DNA from: Chloroflexota bacterium
GTDB taxonomy: Bacteria; Chloroflexota; Anaerolineae; Anaerolineales; UBA4823
NCBI GenBank assembly: GCA_029265355.1
Contig: JAJUJL010000009.1
Span: 62,001-126,000, forward strand
Length of the DNA stretch: 64,000 bases
Direction of reading: 5' to 3'
This document shows positions 1 to 2,046 of this stretch, one piece after another. The translations under genes were made by a program, and so were the position numbers. The notes below the pieces were generated by a model that made no database searches, had not been told where the DNA came from, and saw only the letters and a list, made by a program, of their open reading frames with translations. How positions within the stretch are numbered: position 1 is the first letter of the stretch; each line of letters starts with the position of its first letter.

Positions 1-291
1 CAGCTTCACAGGATGGGTATCGATATGCCTGGAAACCTGGCGTGAATTATACCGGTCGATGTCAAAATCCTCTGACACACCCTTCCCATCCTCGAGAATA
101 TTCTTGATCAGGTCCTCTATGCCTGCTTCTGCAGTGACAAAATGCGCCAATAGCTGGCGAATATTCCAGGTTTCACCGTCCGCGTAAACCGCCTTCTCCC
201 AATCTTTGGGTTCAAGCTGGGCGAAGATGGTCACCGTCTTTTCTCCCTCTATCCGTAGGCGCTCGCTTAAGGACTGTGGAGTGTCCGGCAT
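1..291 (-). CDS. DinB-like four-helix protein, partial (C-terminus beyond window)
   Basis: The minus frame opens with ATG at 291 and stays open to the window edge, giving 97 residues of the N-terminal half. The segment W-N-I-R-Q-L-L-A-H followed by an acidic residue matches the DinB/maleylpyruvate-isomerase-like fold, where this histidine is one of three ligands of a divalent metal. In that family the proteins are often thiol-dependent transferases or remain of unknown function, so no reaction is assigned. The start is supported by a TAGGAG ribosome site that overlaps the stop codon of the upstream rhodanese, so the two are probably co-translated. Residues 60-97 are acidic and unremarkable. 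The two other metal ligands would lie outside the window, so activity cannot be judged. Confidence 0.7.
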   Translation of the reverse strand, partial: MPDTPQSLSERLRIEGEKTVTIFAQLEPKDWEKAVYADGETWNIRQLLAHFVTAEAGIEDLIKNILEDGKGVSEDFDIDRYNSRQVSRHIDTHPVKL

Positions 292-300
292 GTGGATCTC

Positions 301-765
301 CTATGGCTCTGCGGGGTATCCCGCATTTACCCAGGCAAGGAAACCACCCTTTAATGGAGTTACATTTTCGAAGCCATTTTGGATCAGGTAAAGCGCCGCA
401 CGGGCACTTGTCTCTTCCGCAGGTCAGGTTCAGTAAGTGATGATCCAGGTTTGAGGATCGAGCTCTGCTATACGATCCGGTAGCTGCTCGATGGGTATAG
501 ATAAGGCGCCGGGAACGTGTCGCGATGCGTAAGACTGGGCGTCGCGCACATCCAGAAATAAGGCGCTACCAGCCTGATAGGCCGCCAAAGCATCCTCCAA
601 CGAGATGCGCGGCACACTTTCCACGGACTCGGCTGCTGGTAAAGGTGTGGGCGTGGCTTGCGGCGTAAAAATTCCAGGGACAACCAGGGACACTATCGCG
701 CCCAGGAAGAGCAGGCTGCCAGCCGCCATCAAGATGAGGGGTACGGGGTTTTTCTTCTTTCGCAT
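301..765 (-). CDS. membrane-anchored rhodanese, candidate selenoprotein with two in-frame TGA codons
   Basis: Rhodaneses move sulfane sulfur through a catalytic cysteine persulfide. The frame starts at 765 (GAGG six bases upstream) with a basic N-terminus and one hydrophobic anchor (about residues 8-30), a Pro/Thr linker, then a single rhodanese domain (LFLDVRD, HVPGALSIP). Ordinary translation ends at TGA 430-432, but the same frame continues as Y-[TGA]-T-[TGA]-P-A-E-E-T-S-A-R-A-A and a complete C-terminal half (GFENVTPLKGG, AWVNAGYP) to TAG at 301-303. Many relatives have Y-C-T-C-P there, so both TGA codons (430-432 and 424-426) sit on the two active-site cysteines. Readthrough gives 154 residues, a normal length for an anchored single-domain rhodanese. 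Two nonsense mutations hitting just those codons in an otherwise intact frame is unlikely, so selenocysteine is my preferred reading; a pseudogene or sequencing error is the alternative. The DinB-like gene follows directly. Confidence 0.72.
391..409 (-). promoter_or_regulatory. candidate bacterial SECIS hairpin in the rhodanese mRNA
   Basis: On the mRNA strand AAGUGCC (409-403) can pair with GGCGCUU (397-391), one G-U pair included, closing a five-base loop CGUGC (402-398). The loop begins 21 nucleotides after the second TGA and 27 after the first, within the range of about 16-37 accepted for bacterial SECIS elements. A G lies in the first two loop bases, as expected. This is folding by eye in a GC-rich coding stretch, so chance pairing is possible. 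Confidence 0.4.
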
Positions 766-917
766 CCTGGTCCTCGATTTACAACCTTTCTATAGGCGAA
801 CGAGTTTGACAATGCATGGTCAGCATCATACCATAACAATTCCACCCTCTCGACAAATTGCGCGCAAGACTAAGCGTTTCTTCATCCTGCTGAAAGCTGT
901 CTGAACAGGAAAACCAA

Positions 918-979: not shown

Positions 980-1942
980 CTATTTGCGGAAGAAATTTGA
1001 GATGAAAAACCACAGATTCGCCGGTCGCTCTGCCAGGCGACGAACAAAGTACGGGTACCATTCGGTGCCAAAGGGCACATACACACGCACCGGGAAGCCC
1101 TCCACGACCAACCTCTCCTGCAAGTCGCGGCGAATACCGTGAAGCATTTGGAATTCCAAAGCTTGCTTTGGGAAATCGATCGACCTCACCAGCGAGCGCG
1201 CATACTCGATGCGCCGTTCATCATGCGTCGCCAGGGCTGGAGGGGGTGGAAATAAGCCATCCGCGCTGACTGGTGGACAGCCCGCCTCCAGGCAAGCCTC
1301 CAGCATAATTCGTGTGAGACGATCGTAATTCGCGTCGACATCCACTTTTTTCGGATATGCCACCTCGGGAGACTCTTTATAAGCCCCTTTGCAAAGGCGA
1401 ATCCGCGCCCCCTGTTGAGCAAAGCGGCGCACATCCGCCTCGCTTCGATACAAATACGCCTGAATTACAATGCCGACATTATCGAAGCCATGCTCGTCGC
1501 GCAGGCTATGGAATATCTCCAGGGTTTTCGCTGCCCAGGCATAATCTTCCATATCTATGCGCACAAAGTTTCGCTTGTCCCTAGCGCTGGTCAAGATCGC
1601 CAGTAAATGACTCCGGCATATAGACTCGTCCAGCGCCAATCCAATTTGCGTCAACTTGATGGAGACATTGGCGCGCACGCCCGCTTGCTGGATCGCCGTG
1701 AACATGTCTAAGATATCTTGGGTGGCTCGCGAGGCTGCCTCGAGATTGTGTGTGTGTTCTCCCAGGTGGTCGAGGGTGGCGTTGATACCTTTTTGATTCA
1801 ATGCGCGCACCACTCGAATAGCATCCTCCAATTTTTCTCCTGCGATGAATCGAGAAGCGGCTCGCCAGGCAAACTGCCAGCGAGTCACAATTTGCCGCGC
1901 CCAGGCGGCCTTGGATAGATAGATCAGAGATGAGCGTAGCAT
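980..1942 (-). CDS. proline dehydrogenase (flavin, TIM-barrel)
   Basis: Oxidises L-proline to 1-pyrroline-5-carboxylate with FAD, passing electrons towards the respiratory chain or quinones; first step of proline breakdown. The 320-residue protein has the monofunctional bacterial length (about 300-320) and lacks the P5C dehydrogenase domain of PutA. Family landmarks are visible: VSIKLTQIG (barrel strand), RIDMEDYA, RLCKGAYKE and the C-terminal YVPFGTEWYPYFVRRLAER segment that contacts substrate. The frame is open further upstream to 1999, but ATG 1942 is preceded by AAGGAG at ideal spacing and removes a nonfamily 19-residue extension. A possible -10 TACAAT lies at 1979-1974 on this strand. 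No P5C dehydrogenase gene is nearby. The gene is divergent from rpoN. Confidence 0.9.
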   Translation of the reverse strand: MLRSSLIYLSKAAWARQIVTRWQFAWRAASRFIAGEKLEDAIRVVRALNQKGINATLDHLGEHTHNLEAASRATQDILDMFTAIQQAGVRANVSIKLTQIGLALDESICRSHLLAILTSARDKRNFVRIDMEDYAWAAKTLEIFHSLRDEHGFDNVGIVIQAYLYRSEADVRRFAQQGARIRLCKGAYKESPEVAYPKKVDVDANYDRLTRIMLEACLEAGCPPVSADGLFPPPPALATHDERRIEYARSLVRSIDFPKQALEFQMLHGIRRDLQERLVVEGFPVRVYVPFGTEWYPYFVRRLAERPANLWFFISNFFRK

Positions 1943-2046
1943 AAATCTCCTTGGTTTCAGAACCCTTAAATTCATTGTAGCATAAAAGCCTTGCGACAAG
2001 AATCAGCACGATACCTGACAAATGACACTTTGCCAGCCCATAATCG

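Follow-up and report, generated by a model that had tools for sequence, protein, structure and literature searches.

The rhodanese gene at positions 301 to 765 (minus strand) of the window, by which we mean the whole 64,000-nucleotide stretch of DNA analysed, from a Chloroflexota bacterium, very probably encodes a double-selenocysteine (Sec) active site of the form UxU, in which two UGA codons would both be decoded as Sec with a single SECIS element and which would have arisen from the known CxU form. We infer Sec insertion at both codons from comparative evidence. The gene belongs to the known CxU rhodanese kind, as an apparently uncatalogued variant in which both chalcogens of the active-site pair would be selenium. 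The CxU rhodanese, with the motif CxU and one Sec, has been catalogued as Rhodanese-like form 3 (PMC13188914) and as COG0607 form 2 (PMC9312934), and its NCBIfam model is NF041203, 'rhodanese_LYCAU'. No description of a UxU rhodanese turned up in our literature search, which was incomplete, so that an earlier mention is possible. A broader interpretation, for and against which we see about equal weight, is that UxU rhodaneses form a widespread double-Sec class in which one SECIS recodes two UGAs one codon apart. This class would have evolved repeatedly, only onto CxU and never through UxC, as an exported low-potential diselenide catalyst of sulfur/selenium chemistry that in one lineage is wired to an octaheme cytochrome like hydroxylamine oxidoreductase (HAO).

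Reading frame and Sec machinery

The frame comprises 155 codons including the stop, from an ATG at 765-763, with an SD-like AGGA on its 5' side, to a TAG at 303-301. Its two internal stops are TGA 432-430 (codon 112) and TGA 426-424 (codon 114), both on the minus strand. The first-pass annotation had described two in-frame TGAs with an intact frame downstream, and this was borne out, the only other stop being the terminal TAG at codon 155. With both TGAs read as Sec (U), the product has 154 residues: MRKKKNPVPLILMAAGSLLFLGAIVSLVVPGIF...WIITYUTUPAEETSARAALYLIQNGFENVTPLKGGFLAWVNAGYPAEP. The N-terminus reads as a predicted signal anchor, with a transmembrane segment for export or anchoring predicted at 676-741 (minus strand) from the sequence and the hydropathy of the family, and a Pro/Thr/Ala-rich linker lies C-terminal to it. 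The rhodanese domain (Pfam PF00581; 325-600, minus strand) was assigned by profile match and predicted fold. The Pfam profile matches the read-through protein with 58.3 bits (cut-off 22.2) over residues 56 to 147, a span that extends to either side of the two TGAs.

The same annotation had placed the two TGAs at the cysteines of an expected Y-C-T-C-P. This stands for the first, which falls at the canonical catalytic Cys position of rhodaneses. The second, however, does not correspond to a general rhodanese Cys; it coincides with the conserved Sec of the CxU family, and the closest relatives have Sec there (Y-C-T-U-P). A V-U-C-U-P string in an intergenic frame at ~820-828 (minus strand) has no rhodanese around it and was taken as chance.

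The machinery for a bacterial selenoprotein gene is complete in the source genome, a draft assembly of 64 contigs. Searches recovered all four genes: selA (543 bits), selB (344 bits, whole frame), selC (75 bits; identified by ARAGORN as tRNA-SeC with anticodon TCA, that is, UCA) and selD (358 bits). The selD gene has one in-frame TGA within SLSSCAGUASKL, which is taken as the catalytic Cys position, and is itself a selenoprotein gene. Two in-frame UGAs within one gene might also suggest that this genome reads UGA as one of the standard amino acids (Trp, Gly or Cys), but we give this possibility almost no credence. No other stop closes as many of the long frames in the window as TGA does (20 of 43), and this stop usage rules out reassignment here; in addition, a tRNA-Sec with anticodon UCA is present, and both UGAs fall at Sec/Cys positions only.

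The putative SECIS hairpin

A putative bSECIS hairpin lies at 391-409 (minus strand), with a 7-bp stem and the loop CGUGC, and is proposed from its predicted fold, its position in the family, covariation and Ser codon bias. The apical loop begins 21 nt past the second UGA and 27 nt past the first, has G at position 2, and the MFE is -9.1 to -13.8 kcal/mol. According to the published bSECIS rule, the loop has 3-9 nt with G in the first two bases, the stem has 4-16 bp, the distance from the UGA is 16-37 nt and the MFE is <= -7.5 (PMC13188914). The window hairpin lies within every one of these limits, counted from either UGA.

Taken alone, the window hairpin is unexceptional against shuffled sequences (z -1.56 and -0.07), and its stem is partly dictated by the coding of S-A-R-A-A. 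Across the family, the stem pairs that join third codon positions, 21-27, 18-30 and 15-33, are paired in 99, 95 and 50%, compared to 95, 77 and 31% after permutation. In 98% of genes, the Ser of the stem is encoded by AGY, versus 40% for other Ser in the same domains, and eight orthologues alone display C-G to U-A double changes at columns 30-36 and 27-39. The third-position pairing, the AGY bias and the compensatory double changes argue that the RNA structure is under selection. Measured from the second codon, the loop start falls at +21 in 45 of 55 UxU genes and 82 of 119 CxU genes, and the hairpin is similar in the few CxC homologues. Given that hairpin and spacing are identical in CxU and UxU genes, a single SECIS could serve both UGA codons.

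We considered that the second UGA alone might be read as Sec, with translation stopping at the first, either always or under certain conditions (attenuation dependent on selenium or SelB), so that most product would end before the active site. Sec at the second site alone is the majority state of the family, and the first UGA lies 6 nt farther from the hairpin. There may also be a yield cost of double recoding, given that one study reports a single UGA recoded at only 30-40% in E. coli (PMC4513850), so that two UGAs in a row may yield little full-length protein. Nevertheless, we regard this reading as improbable, since the first UGA invariably occupies the codon of the catalytic Cys, arose in many lineages and is kept throughout some clades (for example, all nine octaheme fusions described below), and since its 27-nt spacing is inside the 16-37 nt range (PMC13188914). 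Our preferred reading is that the SelABCD machinery would decode both UGAs as Sec via the one downstream hairpin.

Distribution and origin of UxU rhodaneses

A protein search across 396 genomes of the class returned dozens of relatives, the nearest of them ~50-55% identical to the window rhodanese. The close ones nearly all have one TGA, with the motif Y-C-T-U-P or similar, and U-x-U was found in eight further genomes of this sample. We also scanned ~85,000 species genomes with the degenerate DNA pattern Y-U-[TA]-U-P-x-E..[ST]-A-[RG]-[AV], which gave 48 matches where ~1 was expected by our own estimate. True UxU rhodanese domains account for 47 of these, from Chloroflexota, Nitrospirota, Deltaproteobacteria (Desulfobacterota/Myxococcota) and Planctomycetota; the other match (L097, Arundinibacter) is without a rhodanese and was set aside as chance. 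The selA gene scored over its cut-off in 42 of the 47 genomes, and in 45 of 50 UxU genomes checked, with a truncated copy in one more. The viral contigs scanned held zero UxU rhodaneses.

The aligned family (~180 members) also takes in Desulfobacterota and Nitrospirota samples. In relatives from several phyla, the second codon is TGA and the first is either TGA or a Cys codon (TGT/TGC), and none of these relatives has scattered stops elsewhere in the gene. Decay of the gene, or an artefact of sequencing or assembly by which Cys codons became TGA, would take one substitution from TGC or TGT at each codon, and the assembly is a draft. Even so, we consider this explanation very improbable: it is refuted in practice by the same codon pair in 55 other distinct family members, and the downstream frame is intact and conserved. 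The first-pass annotation had favoured real Sec insertion over decay, and that preference is supported by the Sec machinery in the genome, by the recurrence of TGA at the same codons across several phyla and by the family-wide constraint on synonymous sites of the hairpin. It had further held that this would be an unusual selenoprotein; the gene does not stand alone, however, as there are many UxU members, and the one-Sec CxU form is on record.

The window protein shares with the CxU rhodanese of NF041203 the fold, the loop Y-[CU]-[TA]-U-P-x-E-x-[ST]-S-A-R and the Sec at the second position, and differs in having Sec (TGA 432-430) rather than Cys at the first. It scores 70.5 bits with NF041203, below the curated cut-off of 115, which is passed by the UxU relatives L098, L114 and L088 (175, 146 and 139 bits), and 35 of 35 UxU proteins scanned match the model at E <= 1e-10. 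Pairs of closely spaced Sec residues have been described in other bacterial proteins, among them a Prx-like UxxU protein and the TsoB rhodanese/DsbD UxxxxU protein (PMC2398784, PMC13188914). As in the window gene, the two UGAs lie at or close to a single active site, but the motifs and spacing differ. Of these two, only TsoB contains a rhodanese, fused to DsbD, and its model matches the window protein weakly (21.5 bits versus a cut-off of 805). Genes for UxU rhodaneses will be truncated by annotation pipelines that end a frame at UGA or permit just one.

With CxU in 118 members of the aligned family, UxU in 56, CxC in 8 and UxC in none, the first Sec was seemingly added onto a pre-existing second Sec. 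This order rests on the nesting of states rather than on the root of a tree. Restricted to members sampled by homology and not through the UxU pattern, the tally is CxU 118, UxU 23 and CxC 8. The state of the first site changes ~26 times on the tree, an approximate number from 104 columns only and with many forks open; the starred branches force, on their own, at least five changes. A single UxU clade was rejected (p-AU ~1e-65). UxU evidently evolved repeatedly from the known CxU form, and each origin would have been a change from TGY to TGA at the catalytic Cys codon, repeated in many lineages. The sister of the window rhodanese is a CxU protein of the same family (support 98/82), and a common origin within this family for the window and L077 genes was not rejected (p-AU 0.36).

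At least 11 CxU loci of the family preserve all or some of the order proline dehydrogenase - rhodanese - DinB - UbiA - MoeA, and the same synteny accompanies Y-U-T-U-P at the window locus and at L077/L122. Among these orthologues, codon 112 is TGT or TGC, and TGA in the window and L077. In the window, the proline dehydrogenase gene (980-1999, minus strand) is the upstream neighbour conserved in family orthologues. A DinB_2-family gene (1-291, minus strand) lies ~10 nt after the rhodanese stop, runs off the window and is a probable operon partner. The genes around the window rhodanese point to no single function. Just outside the window, L069 349-1791 (minus strand) combines, as judged by eye, a response-regulator-like N-terminus with a cytochrome c oxidase subunit II / cytochrome c region.

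A Nitrospirota clade (L191, L193, L195, L197, L198, L199, L201 and L204) has C-x-C without Sec in frames of ~334-453 aa and retains a SECIS-like hairpin; it possibly represents Sec loss.

Active site and possible function

The AlphaFold2 model, built from 35 homologues and with a pLDDT of 88, shows a rhodanese domain, and its best structural match is 3tp9 (Z 19.2, rmsd 1.0, 105 residues). In the model, residues 112-114 sit between strand 108-111 and helix 115-129. The first Sec (residue 112) aligns with the catalytic Cys of Y-C in 3tp9 and 3nhv in sequence and profile alignments, and the second is two residues on, directly before the helix. The domain resembles classical single-domain rhodaneses (GlpE, 1gmx; the C-terminal domain of 3tp9; BH2092, 3nhv) in fold (Z 15-19) and in the position of the first catalytic residue. 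The classical enzymes, however, have Cys at that position and lack a further chalcogen two residues later, whereas the window protein would have Sec at both.

The window protein would be a membrane-anchored, extracytoplasmic single-domain rhodanese with the active-site loop U-T-U-P. Sec112 would attack sulfane sulfur, or alternatively Se or sulfur in an oxidised form, and hold it as Se-S, and Sec114, at the N-terminus of the helix, would resolve the Se-S through an Se-Se bond. Diselenides have low redox potentials. The protein may act outside the membrane as a redox-coupled sulfurtransferase or persulfide reductase rather than as a plain thiosulfate:cyanide sulfurtransferase. We put forward this diselenide mechanism of sulfur transfer or reduction tentatively, with our confidence in it a little short of even.

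Nine proteins, mostly deltaproteobacterial, combine a UxU rhodanese with an HAO-related octaheme cytochrome in one fusion (L071, L073, L075, L093, L096, L113, L114, L115 and L215). The cytochrome partners are HAO/hydrazine-dehydrogenase-like, with eight CxxCH motifs each and PDB matches to 6h5l, 6hif and 4n4j. All nine fusions are UxU, and no octaheme fusion was found among the CxU forms of the family. The fusion of UxU domains to octaheme cytochromes favours a redox role; the window rhodanese itself is without such a partner.

Vicinal selenols are good binders of soft metals, and the U-x-U of a double-Sec protein might instead be a soft-metal or metalloid site (Hg, As, Cu) rather than a sulfur-transfer or redox couple. 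The CxU rhodanese of L120 adjoins upstream genes that were named by eye as SCO-like and copper-chaperone-like, which would fit such a site. We nonetheless consider a metal site unlikely, although less so than the alternatives to double decoding, given that the protein retains both the fold and the catalytic Cys position of rhodaneses and that the nine octaheme fusions suggest electron transfer. The natural series CxC, CxU and UxU, with CxU and UxU even at one orthologous locus, offers a way to learn what each Sec adds. The UxU family also raises the questions of why the second site seemingly always came first and how one bacterial SECIS could serve two near-adjacent UGAs.

Two further arrangements were seen among the relatives. 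In L120, L022, L062, L218 and L026, the CxU rhodanese is followed by a second, Sec-free rhodanese of the YCxTSGMAKKA type. In L251 and L258, the motif is shifted (YGDRCUPPERDSARAA and YCSDCUPPKDSARAA), and the Sec lies further on after a small insertion.
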